Source of the DNA: Chlorobiota bacterium | GTDB taxonomy: Bacteria > Bacteroidota > Ignavibacteria > OLB7 | Assembly: GCA_021296135.1 (NCBI GenBank) | Contig: JAGWAZ010000015.1 | Location: forward strand, 1 to 33,878 | Length of the DNA stretch: 33,878 nt | Reading direction: 5' to 3' | Part shown: in pieces, positions 4,669 through 33,611 of the stretch | How positions within the stretch are numbered: position 1 is the stretch's first letter | Layout of the letters: every line of letters starts with the position of its first letter | Position numbers and translations under genes: made by a program | Notes under the pieces: model-generated | Told to the model about the DNA's origin: nothing | Databases searched by the model: none | Seen by the model: only the letters and a program-made list of their open reading frames with translations

Positions 4669-5043
4669 GTGCCTACAATTAATCAACTTGTCCGCAAGGG
4701 ACGCAAACTGAAAAGAGCGAAGAGTGACTCACCGGCTCTCGAACGCTGTCCGCAGCGTCGTGGTGTCTGCACTCGTGTCTATACGACAACGCCGAAGAAA
4801 CCGAACTCGGCACTTCGCAAAGTTGCCCGTGTGCGACTGACGAATGGAATCGAGGTGACTGCATATATCCCTGGCGAGGGACATAATCTTCAGGAGCACT
4901 CGATTGTGCTGATTCGTGGAGGACGTGTCAAAGATCTTCCGGGTGTTCGTTACCACATCGTTCGTGGTACACTTGATACTCAGGGGGTAGAAGATCGTAT
5001 ACAGTCCAGATCGAAATATGGTACGAAGAAGCCGAAAAAATAA
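4669..5043 (+). CDS. rpsL: 30S ribosomal protein S12
   Basis: S12 is 124 residues, the usual bacterial length, and sits at the decoding centre of the 30S subunit. Conserved segments include the N-terminus [11 protein letters not shown], the loop [12 protein letters not shown] (around 40-51, where streptomycin-resistance changes occur in other bacteria), and [11 protein letters not shown]. The start codon is GTG at 4669, chosen because PTINQL is the invariant family N-terminus. No Shine-Dalgarno sequence is visible before it. It is the first gene of the str operon. Confidence 0.97.
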
Positions 5044-5184
5044 CGGCTGATAGTCCGTCCCGCTTGAAGAGGCGGATGGATGTAAAAGATACCCTTAACG
5101 ATACCATCACAATTTATTAACTGGCGCGGCGTGCTGAATCGACAGACGTCGCGCCCGATTTTTCAGAATCATCAGCGAACAGAT

Positions 5185-5652
5185 ATGAGAAAGAAACGGG
5201 CTGAAAAGCGGCGCATCAATCCTGATCCGAAGTTCAATGACATTACGGTCGAGCGTTTCATTAACAATCTGATGCGGCAAGGCAAGAAGAGCATAGCACG
5301 AACTATCTTCTATGGTGCACTTGACGTTATTGGAAAGCGGACAGGGGAAGAGCCAGTCGAAGTCTTCCGTAAGGCGTTGACAAATGTCTCTCCTGCTGTA
5401 GAGGTTCGCTCACGTCGCGTTGGTGGGGCAACATACCAGATCCCGACAGAAGTCCGTCCCGATCGTCGCACTGCTCTTGGCATTCGATGGATCATCCGGT
5501 ATGCACGTGAGCGAAGGGAGAAGGGTATGGTCGCAAAACTTGCTGGTGAGTTGATTGCCGCCGCGAATGGTGAAGGCTCGGCTGTCAAGAAGCGCGAAGA
5601 GATGCATCGAATGGCAGAAGCAAACAAGGCTTTCTCGCATTTCCGCTGGTAA
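5185..5652 (+). CDS. rpsG: 30S ribosomal protein S7
   Basis: S7 is a primary 16S rRNA-binding protein of the 30S head and lines the E site. The frame is open from 5131, but the family N-terminus (MRKKRAEKR) begins at the ATG at 5185, giving 155 residues, the normal length. Recognisable segments are [37 protein letters not shown] and the C-terminal AFSHFRW. No good Shine-Dalgarno sequence precedes 5185. It lies 141 nt after rpsL and 134 nt before fusA. Its homologue autoregulates the str operon in E. coli; no equivalent site is identified here. Confidence 0.96.
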
Positions 5653-5786
5653 GGGTTCGCCCGAGCGTCATGCTGCGCTCATGAATAGATAGGTTGAGAA
5701 GAGTATACATATGATCGAGTCTTGAAGCTCGACTCTGAACAGGAAAGGAAAACAGTAGTTTCGCATAATCAGATCAAGTAATAACA

Positions 5787-7898
5787 ATGTCTCGCAAATA
5801 TCCTCTTGAGAGGGTTCGAAATATCGGCATCATGGCACACATTGATGCTGGCAAGACAACGACAACCGAACGTGTTCTATACTACACGGGCATTCTTCAT
5901 CGAATGGGTGAAGTCCATGAGGGTGCTGCTACCATGGATTACATGGAGCAGGAACAGGAGCGTGGAATCACGATTACTTCTGCAGCAACCGCCTGTTTCT
6001 GGAAAGGAAGCAACGGGCAGTTTCAGGAGCATCGTGTTAACATTATCGATACTCCGGGTCACGTTGACTTTACTGTAGAAGTTGAGCGTTCTTTGCGTGT
6101 TCTCGATGGTGCCGTTGCTCTCTTCTGCTCAGTTGGCGGCGTAGAGCCTCAGTCAGAGACAGTCTGGCGCCAGGCCGATAAGTACAAGGTCCCTCGCATT
6201 GCGTTTGTAAACAAGATGGACCGGGTTGGTGCTGACTTCCTGAACGTTATCGAGATGATGAAAGACCGTCTCGGTGCAAATGCTGTCCCGGTACATCTTC
6301 CAGTTGGTCAGGGAGAGATGTTCAAAGGAATTATCGACCTGATTGAGGATACAGCATACATCTTTGATGACTCTTCTCTCGGCGCCAAGTGGGATGTTAT
6401 CGACATCCCGCACGATATGGAAGAACAGGCACGCGAGTATCGTACCAAGATGCTCGAAGCTGTCGCTGAGGTCGATGATACCCTTCTGGAGAAGTATCTT
6501 GAGGGAGAGGATATTTCCGCAGATGAAATCAAAGCAGTCTTGCGACAGGCTACGCTTGAAGTGCGTATTATTCCGGTTCTGCTCGGAAGCGCGTTCAAGA
6601 ACAAGGGCGTTCAGCAGTTGTTAGATGCTGTCGTTGAGTTTATGCCTTCACCCTCAGATGTTGGAACAACACCAGGGCGTGACTATGAGATAGGTCAGCG
6701 TATGGAGCGTGAAGTCTCCGACTCCGAAGAGTTCTCGGCTCTGGCCTTTAAGATCATTGCAGATAAGTTTGTTGGCAAATTGACATTTGCTCGTATTTAT
6801 TCGGGCACATTGAAAGCTGGGTCGTATGCTTTAAACACCGTCAGTGGCAAGAAGGAACGTATTGGACGTATTCTTAGGATGCACGCCAATCACCGTGAGG
6901 ATGTTGATGAAGCATATACAGGAGATATCATTGCTCTTGTCGGTTTGAAGGAGACACGGACAGGTGATACGTTATCAAGTGACGTGAAGCCGATCGTGCT
7001 TGAGAAGATGGAGTTTCCAGAGCCTGTTATTCAGCTATCGATTGAACCAAAGACCAAAGCTGACCAGGATCGTCTTGGTGGTGCTCTTATTAAGCTTTCC
7101 GAGGAAGATCCTACGTTCCGGGTGAAGGTCGATCATGAGACCGGTCAGACAATCATTGCCGGAATGGGTGAACTACATCTTGATATTATTGTCGATCGCA
7201 TCAAACGGGAATTCAACGTTGATGCCAATATCGGTAAGCCACAGGTTGCTTATCGTGAGACATTCCGCAATGCAATCGATCAGGATACGAAGTTTGTTCG
7301 GCAGACCGGTGGTAAGGGACAGTATGGTCACGTTATTATCGAGTTCACGCCAAATGAGGCAGGTAAAGGCTTTGAGTTTGTCAGCGAGATAGTTGGTGGT
7401 GTGATTCCAAAGGAGTATTTCAAGGCAATCGAACAGGGTGTTGTCGAGGCGATGCAGAATGGTGTGGTAGCCGGGTATCCGGTTGTGGACGTGAAAGCAC
7501 GGCTTCATTATGGGTCGTATCACGATGTAGATTCATCCGAAATGGCATTCAAGATCGCTGCCTCGATGTGTTTCAAGGAAGCAATGCAGAAATCGAACCC
7601 TGCACTCCTTGAGCCAATTATGTCTGTAGAGGTTATAACTCCTGAAGAATACATGGGTGATGTCATGGGCGATCTTTCAAGCCGTCGTGGAAAGGTAGGA
7701 GGAATGACTACTCGTTCAGACGCACAGGTCATTACGTCGATGGTTCCGCTGTCGGAAATGTTTGGCTACGCCACGCGCCTTCGTTCGATGACGCAAGGAC
7801 GTGCAATCTTCACCATGACCTTCGACCATTATGATGAGGTGCCGAAGTCGATCATGGATGAGATTATCGAGAAGAGTGGAAAGGCCGTTGCAGCCTGA
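5787..7898 (+). CDS. fusA: Elongation factor G
   Basis: EF-G is the GTPase that drives translocation of tRNA and mRNA and, with RRF, ribosome recycling. This 703-residue copy has full family length with all five domains. The P-loop AHIDAGKT (17-24), the switch I region with [14 protein letters not shown] and NKMD are intact. Domain IV carries GGKGQYGHV and GGVIPKEYF, and the C-terminal domain has the PIMSVEV and RRG segments. Its position between rpsG and tuf is the classical str arrangement, which supports the canonical translocase rather than a paralogue. Several weak inverted repeats lie in the 134-nt spacer before it. The ATG at 5787 lacks a clear ribosome-binding sequence. Confidence 0.98.
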
Positions 7899-7971
7899 CC
7901 TAACGAATGATGAAATAGATAACATTACAAAAACACCGTTTCACTAATAACCTGTACAGGAGACATCAGGA

Positions 7972-9177
7972 ATGGCAAAAGAGAAATTTGATCGAAGCAA
8001 ACCACACGTGAACGTCGGTACGATCGGACACGTTGACCATGGCAAAACAACCCTTACGGCTGCTATTGCGACGGCCCTCTCCAAAAAAATTGGTGGCGAG
8101 CAACGTTCGTTTGACTCGATCGACAATGCGCCCGAAGAGAAGGCTCGTGGTATAACCATCGCGACAGCTCACGTTGAATACCAGACAGACGCACGTCACT
8201 ACGCTCACGTAGACTGTCCGGGCCACGCTGACTATGTTAAGAACATGATCACCGGTGCTGCTCAAATGGACGGCGCAATTCTTGTTGTTGCCGGCACCGA
8301 TGGTCCAATGCCACAGACAAAAGAACATATCCTTCTTGCACGTCAGGTTGGCGTACCCCGTATTGTTGTCTTCATGAACAAAGTTGATATCGCTGATCCA
8401 GAGCTTCTGGAGCTTGTTGAACTTGAGGTCCGTGAGCTTCTCTCGAAGTATGAGTTCCCGGGCGACGACGTCCCTGTTATCCAGGGATCGGCATTGCAGG
8501 CGCTTGAGGCCGCGATGAGCGACGCTTCGCTGGATGATCCGCGTTACCAGTGCATTTGGGATCTGATGGATGCTGTTGATACCTATATCCCGACACCGGA
8601 GCGTGACATAGAAAAGCCGTTCCTGATGCCTATCGAGGACGTCTTCTCGATTCCTGGTCGCGGTACGGTAGGTACTGGTCGTGTCGAGCGCGGTGTTATC
8701 AACCTGAACGAGGAGGTTGAGATGGTCGGTCTCGGCGCGAACCGCAAGACGGTTGTTACCGGTATCGAGATGTTCCGCAAGATGCTCGATTCAGCGCAGG
8801 CTGGCGACAACGCTGGCATGCTGCTGCGCGGTGTTGACAAAAATGAGTTGGAGCGCGGAATGGTTCTTTGTAAGCCCGGTTCGGTAACTCCACATACCAA
8901 GTTCAATGCGCAGATTTACGTCCTTTCAAAGGATGAAGGTGGGCGCCACACGCCATTCTTCAATGGCTATCGCCCGCAGTTCTACTTCCGCACAACTGAC
9001 GTGACAGGCGTGATGAACCTGCCGGCCGGAACAGAGATGGTGATGCCTGGTGACAACGTCGATAATATTGACGTCGAGTTGATCTCGCCGATCGCTATGG
9101 AGGAAGGTCTCCGCTTCGCTGTCCGCGAGGGTGGTCGCACCGTTGGCGCTGGCATCGTTACAAAAATCGTTGAGTAG
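7972..9177 (+). CDS. tuf: Elongation factor Tu
   Basis: EF-Tu delivers aminoacyl-tRNA to the ribosomal A site as a GTP complex. The protein is 401 residues, close to the usual 393-400. The P-loop GHVDHGKT (19-26), [12 protein letters not shown] in switch I, DCPGH and MNKVD are all present, as are domain II ([13 protein letters not shown]) and the C-terminal domain III. AGGAGA lies 15-20 nt upstream and a second weak match CAGGA is adjacent to the ATG. It is the last gene of the str operon and is followed by a very strong terminator. Only one tuf copy is in this window. Confidence 0.98.
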
Positions 9178-9204
9178 TTTCCTTCTCTGAAGAAAACTTT
9201 AATT

Positions 9205-9244
9205 AAAAGCCCTCGCGGGAACTCCCGCGAGGGCTTTTGTTTTC
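9205..9244 (+). terminator. Intrinsic terminator after tuf
   Basis: AAAAGCCCTCGCGGGA (9205-9220) is perfectly complementary to TCCCGCGAGGGCTTTT (9223-9238). This gives a GC-rich stem closed by a short loop, followed by GTTTT. It separates the str operon from the S10 cluster, so the latter needs its own promoter. The A-run on the left could also make it work in the opposite direction. Confidence 0.92.
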
Positions 9245-9443: not shown

Positions 9444-9472
9444 TTGCATATCGAATGCCACTCCGCTATATT
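9444..9472 (+). promoter_or_regulatory. Predicted S10 cluster promoter
   Basis: TTGCAT (9444-9449) and TATATT (9467-9472) are separated by 17 nt, the optimal sigma-70 spacing. The -10 region is embedded in CTATATTTATAG, identical to the block in front of rpsL. Both are followed by R-CT-W-TTT and then by GGGCTG (9494-9499 here). Its place directly after the tuf terminator makes it the likely start of the long S10-spc-alpha transcript. Confidence 0.65.
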
Positions 9473-9479
9473 TATAGGC

Positions 9480-9772
9480 TATTTGATTTGACAGGGCTGT
9501 AAGGAGGCAAGTGAAGTTCTACGAACTCTCCGTCCTACTTGCGGAGAAAGCGGCAGAACCGAGGCAAAAAGCCCGACTTGTTCTCTTGCGTTGAAAGAGA
9601 TATCAACTCAAAGGTTGACAGGTCTTAAAGCCATCGGACGCACGTCGTCGGCCCAAATCAAAGCGAACTACAGAATAAATAAGTAAAAGTGACGCGAGCG
9701 GACTTCCGCAGTATCGCACGCGGTTTTGTCTTTGCGTCCTAATTCAACGATAACCAGAAGCGACAAAGGATC
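9480..9772 (+). promoter_or_regulatory. Long structured leader of the S10 cluster
   Basis: From the predicted start near 9480 to rpsJ there are about 290 untranslated nt. Pairings that can be read directly are GCAAGT (9507-9512) with ACTTGC (9537-9542), the inner hairpin AGTTC/GAACT (9515-9519 with 9523-9527), and CTCCG/CGGAG (9528-9532 with 9542-9546), which competes with the first. Further pairings are TCAAC/GTTGA (9603-9607 with 9614-9618) and the long-range pair GGACGC (9636-9641) with GCGTCC (9734-9739). In E. coli the S10 leader binds L4 to attenuate transcription and translation. This leader could play the same role, but I see no sequence match to that element. Confidence 0.55.
9691..9733 (+). 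terminator. Attenuator-like hairpin in S10 leader
   Basis: GCGA-GCGG (9694-9701) can pair with CCGC (9706-9709) and TCGC (9714-9717) around an ACTT loop and a 4-nt bulge. The T-rich TTTTGTCTTT begins at 9724, a few nt further on. The arrangement looks like a weak intrinsic terminator inside the leader. Its 5' side (GACGC 9691-9695) can instead pair with GCGTC (9734-9738), so two mutually exclusive folds are possible. Function as an attenuator is inferred. Confidence 0.35.
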
Positions 9773-10081
9773 TTGGTAGCCCAGGTAATTCGTATAAAGC
9801 TAAAGTCATACGATCATAATCTGATCGATAAGTCAACAGAGAAGATCATTCGTACTGTTCGCCAGACCGGCGCGATCGTCTCGGGGCCGATCCCGCTTCC
9901 GACGCAGCGCACAGTCTATACGGTCAATCGTTCGCCACACATTGATAAGAAATCACGCGAGCAATTCGAGCAGCGTATTCACAAGCGTCTGATTGATATT
10001 CTGAATTCGACTTCTAAGACAGTCGATTCACTCATGCGGTTGGAACTTCCGGCCGGCGTTGACGTTGAGATCAAGGTCTAA
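9773..10081 (+). CDS. rpsJ: 30S ribosomal protein S10
   Basis: S10 is 102 residues, normal for the family. It sits in the 30S head and also serves as NusE in transcription antitermination in bacteria. The opening [18 protein letters not shown], the central [26 protein letters not shown] region and the C-terminal [11 protein letters not shown] are diagnostic. The only plausible start is TTG at 9773; no in-frame ATG or GTG precedes the conserved core. AAAGGA ends just 2 nt before it, an unusually short spacing. A rare start codon with a cramped site suggests translation is limited or controlled by the leader. It is the first gene of the S10 cluster. Confidence 0.95.
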
Positions 10082-30317: not shown

Positions 30318-33300
30318 ATGAAACGCTTGCTACTATGTCTTGCGGGTATATTTCTTGCAGTACCACTTGCACTGCAAGCCCAGACATCAGGAACACTAGA
30401 AGGGACTGTGACAGACGAAAATGGCGAAGGGATTCCTGGGGCTACAGTTCTGGTGATCGGTACAAGCCGTGGAGCGAGTACTGATGTCAACGGCAAGTTC
30501 CTTATTGCCGGTATACGTGCGGGTAACTATGTGGTCGAGATAACCTCAATTGGAACTTCGGACACACTCACTCGTCAGGTGAGTATCTCAGCAAACAGGA
30601 CAACACGTGAAAATTTTCAGTTCGGGTCGACTGGAATAGAGAGTGAGGTTGTTGATTATGTCAAGAAAAGGGAAAGGGTTGATCCTGAAACTACAGGTGC
30701 GGTGCGGGAGCTAACGGGTGACGAACTTCTCAGAGGAAATACTCAGTCAACGTTTGGCGAGATTGCCCGAGAGGCAACCGTTAATACCTCAGGTGGAGGG
30801 TTTAACATAAGGGGTGGTCGTGGAAACGAAACTTCAATCCGGCGTGATGGTATCGAAATCACCGATCCCGTTACTGGTGGAGCCGGTCCTTTAGGGATTA
30901 ATCTTTTTCCCGACGTGGCGCAGGTTGCTGTAGAGCGTGTTCAGATCATCGCTTCCGGCTTCGAGGCTGAGCACGGCGATGTCCTTTCAGGAACAATTAA
31001 CATTGTCACAAAAAACGGACGCAACAATCGATTCGATGGGATCCTGTCCTATCGGACTGGTTTGCCGTTTTTATACGGCTCAAGTAGCCCGATTACTGTC
31101 AAACTTGCCGGCACTGACAAGGATACGGTATTGCCTGGGTATAAGTTGCAGTCAAGTGGTAACCGGGTCTTCGAGTTTGGATTCGGAGGTTATGTCCCGG
31201 GAATAAAGAACAATACAGGAAACAACGCCTTGCGGTTCTATCTCTCGGGACGCTACAATCCGCGGACACGAAATGGAGGGTATGCAGTGATGGATATGTC
31301 GGACGAGTTCGCAGCAGCTCGAGTTACAAAAGCACAAGAGGTTTGGGGGTACTCTCTGGAGCCGACCGATCTCGGTGCAATAGAGCGTGATATCAAAGTT
31401 CGGAACGTTAATGCGAAGCTTCGCTATGACATCGGAGCCCTAACGTACGTCGAGCTTGGTGGTGAGGTCGGTCTGACTACAGGAGAGAGTAATCGTTGGA
31501 GACATCTTTATCGTCGTGACCACCCCGTGTTCTCTCGTGTTGAGGATGATGGCCAGGTTGTCTATGACACAAACTTCGCTCTTATGGAACGGGACATCCA
31601 GGCGACAGACTACAATACCGTGATCAACAGGATTTTGGGTAAAGTATGGAAAGGGCTGAGTGGTGGTTCCAGCTATTTTGAGCTTGAAGGAGCATGGGTT
31701 GTCAACAGATTTGAAATTGGCAAGAAAGACGAAAGTAAAGATTATGGCATCTTCGATCTTTATGACATTCCGGACATTGTAGATCAGTATAATCTTGCGG
31801 TCTTCGATCCATCAAATCCGAGTCTTGTACCAAACGATAATGGTCTAATTGACATATACGAGCTTCCTACTTCCGGAATAAATCCATTAACAGGTCTCTA
31901 TGAAGGCGGGGAGTCCCCGGGTGCAAGTCGTAATCCATATGGAATGATTGCGAGTGGCAGCGGCTTTTTTCCAACGCATGGTAATTCCCGGTCGTTGGAA
32001 CTCCGTGAATCAACAACGATTACGACCGAGGGAACATATGAAACAAACTTCCAGCTCGGAGATGCCCTAAAGGATGAGGATAACGTTCGCACGAAATTGC
32101 GGGCCGGCTTCGACTTTGCATACTATTCGCTGCGTCGTCATGAGAACAACCTCCCATGGGATGTTAGTCCATTCTTTGATGTCTATGGTTTTGACGCCAC
32201 ATATTTTGCCTCGATAGACCCTACAGGCCGTCTGAGAGATTTTCTTGCGCAGCCCTTTCATCCGTTCAAAGGCGCGATCTGGGCGCAGACACGTTTCAAC
32301 TACAAGACGATCGTTTTCAATACAGGCCTTCGTTTTGATTTCTTCAATCCTAACACTCAGGCAGCGCCATTGACGCGCCAGACGCCCGGAGAGCTTCTTG
32401 CTTCGCTCGATACGGTTGGCGATGCCACTATGAAGTTTCAAGTTAGTCCACGCATTGGTATTAGTTATCCGATTACCGACAACGCGAACTTCCGCGTCAA
32501 TTTTGCAATGATGTTCAAGATGCCGGAGATGAGGCTCCTCTACGACAATGCCTATGGAGATGCAAGGCGTGGAAATCGGTTGTTCGGTAATCCCGATATC
32601 GATCCTGAGAAGGTTGTCATCTATGATCTCGGCTATGAGGCACGGCTTAATGATAACTTCTTTGTCGATGTCTCGGCGTTCAATCGCGACATCTTTAATC
32701 AGAGTGGGGTGACCTATGTTCCGGCTGTGCCTTCACCATATATACTACAGACAGTTCAAGAGTATGGCAATGTCAGAGGTCTTGAGCTTACGCTCGAGAT
32801 GAGGCGAGCCGGTCCAAACGATCATATTCGAGGTCGATTGAACTATACACTACAGCGTGCAGCCGGCACGGCTTCCTCCCCTATATCGAACTATCGGACG
32901 CTTATCGGATCGGCTGATCCGTACACCGGTGAGAGACGCGATAACCCACTGACTGAGTTTCCACTTGACTATGATCAGACACATACCTTCAATGCGACGG
33001 TCGGTTTTGTCTGGTTAAACGATCAAGGTCCGGCTCTTGGTGGAATGCATCTGCTGGAGAATACAGATATCTCTTTTACAGGGTTGTATGGGGCGGGGCG
33101 GCCTTTTACCCTGGGTATCGACAGTGATGGTGGCGAGCAGGTCGGTGAGTTCAATGCTAATCGATTCCCCGCACAGTTTAACTCAGAGGCTCGAATCAGT
33201 CGCACGATATACTTAAGCGACATTTTTGGGGAGTCAGTTGGTCGGACAAATCTTGAGATTTTCCTCATAGTATCGAATTTGTTTAACACGACGGGGCCGG

Positions 33301-33611
33301 TATCGTTCTATACAAGAACAGGTACTCCGGATCGAAACGGAACTTCTCTTGACAGACTTCTTGGTGAGTTCCCTGTTGTTTCATACTTCGACAAAGAAGA
33401 CCCAAATCGTCCTGAGACGGTCGGCACAAGTCAATTTGATCAGTTTGGAACACGACACTACAATCCATACGCTGACATCAATCTCGATGGCGTAGTAACC
33501 CAGGCCGAGAAGTATGCTGGATATCAGCGTTATGTTGCAACGGTCCAATCGTTGCGTGGCAACTATGATCTACCTCGAACCTTTACACTGGGAATGCGCC
33601 TTCGCTTTTAA
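30318..33611 (+). CDS. TonB-dependent outer-membrane receptor with CarboxypepD_reg-like domain
   Basis: This 1097-residue protein is an outer-membrane receptor of the Bacteroidota style. Residues 1-22 form the signal peptide (cleavage after LALQAQ). Residues about 25-103 form a carboxypeptidase-regulatory-like beta-sandwich (GTVTDENGEGIPGATVLVIG, then DVNGKFLIAGIRAGNY). A plug follows to about 235, with GFNIRGGRGNETSIRRDGIE and SGTINIVTKNGR. The rest forms the 22-strand barrel, ending in RTFTLGMRLRF with a terminal Phe. An EF-hand-like loop occurs at 1053-1064. AAGGAG lies 7 nt before the ATG. No SusD gene is visible; the next gene is only partly in the window. The transported substrate is unknown. 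Confidence 0.92.
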   Translation: MKRLLLCLAGIFLAVPLALQAQTSGTLEGTVTDENGEGIPGATVLVIGTSRGASTDVNGKFLIAGIRAGNYVVEITSIGTSDTLTRQVSISANRTTRENFQFGSTGIESEVVDYVKKRERVDPETTGAVRELTGDELLRGNTQSTFGEIAREATVNTSGGGFNIRGGRGNETSIRRDGIEITDPVTGGAGPLGINLFPDVAQVAVERVQIIASGFEAEHGDVLSGTINIVTKNGRNNRFDGILSYRTGLPFLYGSSSPITVKLAGTDKDTVLPGYKLQSSGNRVFEFGFGGYVPGIKNNTGNNALRFYLSGRYNPRTRNGGYAVMDMSDEFAAARVTKAQEVWGYSLEPTDLGAIERDIKVRNVNAKLRYDIGALTYVELGGEVGLTTGESNRWRHLYRRDHPVFSRVEDDGQVVYDTNFALMERDIQATDYNTVINRILGKVWKGLSGGSSYFELEGAWVVNRFEIGKKDESKDYGIFDLYDIPDIVDQYNLAVFDPSNPSLVPNDNGLIDIYELPTSGINPLTGLYEGGESPGASRNPYGMIASGSGFFPTHGNSRSLELRESTTITTEGTYETNFQLGDALKDEDNVRTKLRAGFDFAYYSLRRHENNLPWDVSPFFDVYGFDATYFASIDPTGRLRDFLAQPFHPFKGAIWAQTRFNYKTIVFNTGLRFDFFNPNTQAAPLTRQTPGELLASLDTVGDATMKFQVSPRIGISYPITDNANFRVNFAMMFKMPEMRLLYDNAYGDARRGNRLFGNPDIDPEKVVIYDLGYEARLNDNFFVDVSAFNRDIFNQSGVTYVPAVPSPYILQTVQEYGNVRGLELTLEMRRAGPNDHIRGRLNYTLQRAAGTASSPISNYRTLIGSADPYTGERRDNPLTEFPLDYDQTHTFNATVGFVWLNDQGPALGGMHLLENTDISFTGLYGAGRPFTLGIDSDGGEQVGEFNANRFPAQFNSEARISRTIYLSDIFGESVGRTNLEIFLIVSNLFNTTGPVSFYTRTGTPDRNGTSLDRLLGEFPVVSYFDKEDPNRPETVGTSQFDQFGTRHYNPYADINLDGVVTQAEKYAGYQRYVATVQSLRGNYDLPRTFTLGMRLRF

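Follow-up and report, generated by a model that had tools for sequence, protein, structure and literature searches.

A probable family-specific, structured leader RNA upstream of rpsJ in the S10 operon of a Chlorobiota bacterium

Few ribosomal-protein operons are as large as the S10 operon. In a Chlorobiota bacterium (GenBank assembly GCA_021296135.1), a stretch of 33,878 nucleotides of contig JAGWAZ010000015.1, which was analysed as a whole and is referred to here as the window, carries rpsL, rpsG, fusA and tuf (4669-9177), followed by rpsJ at 9773 and the genes for L3, L4 and L23. A preliminary description of this DNA had proposed that the long untranslated stretch before rpsJ is a switchable leader with two sets of mutually exclusive pairings and an attenuator-like hairpin, and that it could be a distinct class of ribosomal-protein leader. 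The locus thus raises the question of whether a structured RNA precedes rpsJ, how far it is conserved, and by what means it may act on the operon.

The region between tuf and rpsJ

The untranslated stretch is bounded by a promoter-like element and the rpsJ start codon, and the features of the locus are as follows.

9467..9474, + strand: promoter -7-like element TATATTTA; TATATTTG stands at the same place in four relatives, so that the element occurs in 5/5 family genomes
9475..9772, + strand: proposed S10-operon leader RNA, 298 nt; blind covariance-model match at 9474-9562, leader in 5/5 family genomes
9765..9770, + strand: Shine-Dalgarno-like AAAGGA, separated by 2 nt from the TTG start codon (from the sequence)
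9773..10081, + strand: rpsJ (S10), first gene 3′ of the leader; TTG start, S10 by NCBIfam at 162.6 bits
10818-11633: L4, encoded in the same operon (protein-family match)

The untranslated stretch that had been described before rpsJ is real and measures 298 nt from TATATTTA to TTG, and from its sequence the leader probably begins slightly upstream of the position first given for it (9480). TAnnTTTG is presumably the Bacteroidota -7 element; a sigma-70 scan returned no site in the window and listed the element's site in two of the loci (L003 and L004). The TTG start of rpsJ and its tight ribosome-binding site, with a 2-nt gap between AAAGGA and TTG, are likewise as previously described. By comparison of sequences such a start is not unusual in the window's class: among the four codons read, the 25 loci from other families have GTG in 11 cases, ATG in 9, TTG in 3 and none of these in 2. 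Downstream of tuf, a very stable hairpin with A and T tracts (9204-9239, -30.5 kcal/mol) is likely the tuf terminator; the same hairpin gives a weak, sub-threshold match to Rfam His_leader. Elsewhere in the window, 1202-2887 encodes a VWA-domain protein with a below-cut-off match to a type IX secretion tail, and 30318-33611 a large protein with partial, below-cut-off matches to TonB-dependent receptors.

The genome set comprised 99 genomes including the window's own, with four others of the same family (G001-G004) and 94 of the same class; the family sample is five genomes only, two of which (G002 and G004) are very similar. Thirty loci were compared, five from the family and 25 from other families of the class. 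The EF-Tu C-terminus ends 21-124 nt before rpsJ in 25/25 other-family loci, and in many of these (L006, L008-L031) the tuf-rpsJ spacer contains a GC-rich hairpin. Within the family tuf and rpsJ lie 595 nt apart in the window and farther apart in G003 (about 1.26 kb) and G001 (about 2.1 kb), and none of rpsL, rpsG, fusA and tuf was found in the ~7 kb upstream of rpsJ in G002 and G004. The leader keeps to rpsJ despite these differing upstream genes (tuf in the window, G001 and G003, not in G002 and G004). Leaders of 410-419 nt precede rpsJ in the four relatives, versus 298 nt in the window, and begin with TATATTTG followed by CAGGCT. These gene orders and sequences are read most simply as a loss of the tuf-rpsJ linkage in the family, together with the gain of a promoter and a leader.

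In the rRNA leaders of G003 and G002 (L128, L129) the sequence after the TAnnTTTG promoter is GGCTCT or GGCCCC, which resembles the start of the S10 leader, and a start sequence common to rRNA and S10 transcripts might point to a shared growth-rate control. Upstream of 16S in the same two genomes stands GTTCTTTGACA, which we take to be boxA. In all five S10 leaders TGTCT lies 46-64 nt before the start codon (window: 9726-9733). A boxA/NusE element in the leader was nevertheless judged unconvincing, as TGTCT is the sole pentamer that the final 80 nt of the five leaders share, and when four leaders were shuffled, some shared pentamer still arose in 97 of 2000 cases.

Conserved structure and its distribution

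Comparative evidence for a structure comes from the four relatives, in which seven helices were drawn by reading the sequences and then counted on a sequence-only MAFFT alignment (A4). Two-sided changes were found in 13 of 43 pairs (shuffle mean 5.8, with 0/500 shuffles reaching 13), standard pairs fill 93.5% of the cells of the seven helices (shuffle mean 85.5), and the structure shows 23 further pair types, a number reached by 3/500 shuffles. Sliding the helices by 1-3 columns left 0-3 two-sided pairs and 27-46% of cells paired, in a control that is biased in favour of the counted structure because that structure was derived from the same four relatives. Covariation in relatives, on which the preliminary description had staked its case beforehand, is thus present and favours the structure.

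The first domain, at the 5′ end of the relatives' leaders, is a three-way junction formed by the long-range closing helix H0, the arm P1/P2 and a second arm; four of the eight pairs of H0 covary in the relatives. The strands of H0 are GTGTGAGT/ACTCGCAC in G001 and GCACAGGT/ACTTGTGC in G003; G002 and G004 have GCACAGGT/GCCTTTGC, with one mismatch. Inside this domain P1 is present and P2 covaries at two pairs, and the bases AAC and AAAGYGG, unpaired between P1 and P2, are near-invariant in the five leaders. The relatives carry in addition a second junction, in which Hg encloses He and Hf. RNAalifold run on five rows, which used no hand-drawn input, predicted H0, P1, P2 and Hb with a covariation term of -0.04; on four rows it returned P1 and P2 and did not return H0. 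Folded as single sequences, the relatives gave z values of -1.43 (G003), -0.44 (G001), -2.12 (G002) and -2.03 (G004). The comparison of sequences makes it very probable that a conserved structured leader lies upstream of rpsJ.

The distribution of the leader was traced with two covariance models. R1, a model of the 5′ domain with 89 positions and 11 pairs, was derived from the four relatives with the window left out. In a search of 32 sources totalling 135 kb it scores 28.6 bits in the window (9474-9562, E 8.3e-5), and the next unrelated match scores 11.3 bits. Across 391 genomes of the class and at E up to 0.1, R1 matched all five family members, in each case at rpsJ, along with ten of the remaining 386 genomes. 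These ten matches are weak (E 0.001-0.1), and two of them (L119, L121) fall inside long ORFs; one scores 29.8 bits, slightly above the window, whose own genome-wide E is only 0.0018. The case for the R1 match in the window therefore lies in score and position taken together. Among 395 genomes of the phylum R1 gave no match at E up to 0.001, a cut-off at which the window itself was also missed. R2, which models the second junction of the relatives with its helices Hg, He and Hf, found the four relatives and nothing else across 197 class genomes, and had no match in the window. At the level of sequence and model matches, the window's leader is a reduced version, without a match to the relatives' second domain.

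Known RNA families did not account for the leader. Rfam 15 at gathering thresholds gave 0 matches in the window, and in a permissive search of the five loci, up to E 5, no match overlaps the leader. A misplaced known RNA was rejected on these grounds, and rnpB sits elsewhere (contig C18, 271.2 bits).

Predicted folds of the window's leader

Folded alone, the window's sequence is not unusually stable relative to dinucleotide shuffles: 9480-9790 has a z of -1.41 (7/100 shuffles as stable) and 9475-9772 a z of -0.69 (23/100), and so the sequence of the window is by itself no proof of a leader structure. When the five leaders are cut just after H0, at a point chosen by hand, all five take as their minimum-energy fold a three-way junction of which P1/P2 forms one arm. 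In the window this fold pairs 9506-9512 with 9576-9582 (H0) and 9499-9504 with 9584-9589 (its extension). The predicted elements of this fold are the following.

9499..9512, + strand: H0 5′ strand, core GCAAGT 9507-9512, extension 9499-9504; core probability 0.94 in a transcript to 9600
9516..9520, + strand: P1 5′ strand GTTCT, partner 9555-9559; probability 0.98 in a transcript to 9600
9524..9526, + strand: P1-P2 internal loop, AAC opposite AAG at 9548-9550, candidate protein-binding site; near-invariant in five leaders
9527..9547, + strand: P2 hairpin, 9527-9533/9541-9547; CTCCG/CGGAG probability 0.998-0.999, covaries in relatives
9555..9559, + strand: P1 3′ strand AGAAC (predicted fold; P1 present in relatives)
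9560..9575, + strand: second arm of the three-way junction, short (minimum-energy fold), about 100 nt longer in relatives
9576..9589, + strand: H0 3′ strand, core ACTTGT 9576-9581, extension 9584-9589 (predicted fold; the homologous helix covaries)

In the window, P1 is offset in register from the R1 model. The same junction topology arises in 71 of 1000 shuffles in which P2 is kept and the flanks are shuffled, and the predicted probability of H0 falls from 0.83 to 0.26 once the start region is added; for full transcripts to +30 it is 0.25 in the window, 0.22 in G001 and 0.99 in G003. Because of the shuffled topologies and the H0 probability of only 0.25 to +30, the fold of the window is supportive and not decisive. 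Within 9501-9594, AAGGAGG (9501-9507) is followed after 3 nt by a GTG, the first codon of a 27-codon ORF, VKFYELSVLLAEKAAEPRQKARLVLLR, whose codons overlap P1 and P2. A leader peptide was rejected, since this ORF is found in the window only and no counterpart with such a ribosome-binding site was seen in the four relatives.

All complementary segments named in the preliminary description are present in the window, at the positions given below.

9507-9512, 9537-9542, 9528-9532 and 9542-9546, + strand: first set, GCAAGT, ACTTGC, CTCCG and CGGAG (from the sequence)
9694-9701, 9706-9709 and 9714-9717, + strand: second set, GCGA-GCGG, CCGC and TCGC (from the sequence)
9691-9695, 9734-9738, 9636-9641 and 9734-9739, + strand: alternatives in the second set, GACGC, GCGTC, GGACGC and GCGTCC (from the sequence)
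9724-9733, + strand: T-rich run (from the sequence)
9691..9738, + strand: GCGG/CCGC and GACGC/GCGTC, two hairpins in local competition around the T-rich run (in predicted folds of transcripts of increasing length)

With regard to the first set, the pairing of CTCCG with CGGAG holds up well and is the conserved helix P2. The competition proposed for it does not: GCAAGT/ACTTGC and CTCCG/CGGAG share only base 9542, and GCAAGT/ACTTGC has a probability of 0.000 and costs 5.3 kcal/mol. The best-supported partner of GCAAGT is the 3′ strand of H0 (9576-9581) and not ACTTGC, and a pseudoknot of GCAAGT with the P2 loop had no consistent counterpart in the relatives when these were read by eye. The second set survives in part. 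GCGG/CCGC does compete with GACGC/GCGTC in the window's predicted folds, the growing transcript passing locally from GCGG/CCGC (0.83, to 9733) to GACGC/GCGTC (0.97, to 9740), whereas GGACGC/GCGTCC has a probability of 0.001-0.035. No counterpart of this competition was found in the relatives, where the region aligns poorly.

Possible control of the operon and known S10 leaders

A distinct S10 leader class was borne out by the position at rpsJ in 5/5 family genomes, the covarying fold and the want of an Rfam family; the specific switch and attenuator put forward with it were not. From sequence comparison we favour, with reservation, an S10-operon leader RNA that acts in cis and belongs to a class that the searches made found only in the window's family. 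Autogenous control by a protein of the operon is a reasonably likely function: an operon-encoded ribosomal protein in excess over rRNA would bind the 5′ domain and lower expression of rpsJ and the genes downstream, its likeliest site being the conserved AAC/AAG internal loop that separates P1 from P2. L4 in particular may be the ligand, although this is a tentative assignment, and L4 is the first candidate solely because of the analogy with E. coli. In the window, L4 carries an acidic tail (the model for this protein stops at residue 203 of 271), which is lacking in the L4 proteins of G001, G002 and G004. The lack of a conserved intrinsic terminator makes translation initiation or mRNA stability likelier than termination as the controlled step.

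Control by termination would follow the pattern of transcription attenuation described for E. coli, with a bound protein shifting a terminator hairpin (9693-9722) and its T-rich run against GACGC/GCGTC. The -10.8 kcal/mol hairpin adjoins GTTTTGTCTTT, the local refolding predicted for the growing transcript involves the same segments, and the E. coli leader offers a precedent (PMC10931766). Against this, 25 of 200 shuffles equal the stability of the hairpin, and nothing comparable exists in the four relatives, the best hairpins being -4.1 (G001) and -2.0 kcal/mol (G002), with none in G003 and G004. A standard terminator scan was blank on the leader strand of all five leaders; it also missed the tuf terminator, and for this reason an own hairpin scan was made with that terminator (-30.5 kcal/mol) as positive control. 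The attenuator-like hairpin of the preliminary description thus finds no backing, and attenuation is an improbable mechanism. A second form of switching, in which a protein-stabilised 5′ three-way junction would compete with a long-range fold covering the start codon, is a model of similarly low probability. In the predicted alternative the region of the P1 3′ strand (9552-9561) pairs over 10 bp with CGGTTTTGTC (9721-9730), and GGGCT (9494-9498) covers AGCCC (9778-9782) at the start codon; the window's predicted global fold shifts to this alternative when the start region is included. The 10-bp duplex stands out from shuffles in the window, where a fraction of 0.022 match it, but not in G001 (0.42), G002 (0.32) or G003 (0.09); the fraction is 0.032 in G004, but there the best duplex is located elsewhere. 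Pairing between the 5′ end and the start region is no better than in shuffles in any of the five leaders (0.25-0.88).

The leader might instead be structured without having a specific ligand, serving mRNA protection or a fixed rate of translation. Large changes in length (298 against 410-419 nt) are tolerated in the inner part of the leader, and a sequence-level check against the rRNA of G003 brought up no mimicry: the conserved leader motif is absent from 16S and 23S, the best R1 score is 5.5 bits (E 1.9), and the 9-mers common to leaders and rRNA, counted without a shuffle control, are scattered and differ between leaders. Missing mimicry does not exclude an r-leader, as r-leaders with no apparent rRNA similarity are described (PMC7247131), and the near-invariant unpaired AAC and AAAGYGG between P1 and P2 suggest a binding site, which makes a ligand-free leader rather unlikely. 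The RNA could also be the product of an independent small RNA gene that merely lies upstream of rpsJ, as its own promoter-like element and elaborate fold would allow. Such a gene is very improbable, given that the RNA stands directly upstream of rpsJ on the same strand in 5/5 genomes despite differing upstream genes, and that no convincing terminator separates it from rpsJ.

A cis-acting leader with feedback by a protein of the operon would have parallels elsewhere. In E. coli, L4 binds the S10 leader, and this leader acts on transcription as well as on translation; the L4-type control and its site are reported to be not widely conserved, the control not even among gamma-proteobacteria (PMC10931766). 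The present leader resembles this system, known from E. coli and a few other gamma-proteobacteria, in that the S10 operon has a 5′ UTR that is long and structured and through which feedback by an operon protein is possible (PMC10931766). It differs in having neither an Rfam match nor a conserved terminator and in belonging to a distant lineage. The rpsJ leaders of Firmicutes/Clostridia (PMC7247131) and the rpsJ motif of Peptostreptococcaceae (PMC11109978) share the presence of a structured element in the rpsJ 5′ UTR. These belong to another phylum, and a structural difference from them is judged through Rfam only, where no match was found. Some r-leaders of Bacteroidetes/Chlorobi, such as those of L13 and S6:S18, are also limited to one lineage, and at least the Chlorobi S6:S18 motif is likewise without apparent rRNA similarity (PMC7247131). 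Unlike the present RNA, which reaches 419 nt and has two junctions in the relatives, these leaders precede other operons. In the open-access literature searched, no S10 leader described for this group was found, which does not establish that none has been published.

A leader confined to one family, in which the tuf-rpsJ linkage is broken, would be a newly evolved control of the S10 operon. In the window it would provide a compact RNA of about 115 nt with which to find the operon protein that acts as the sensor, if there is one.
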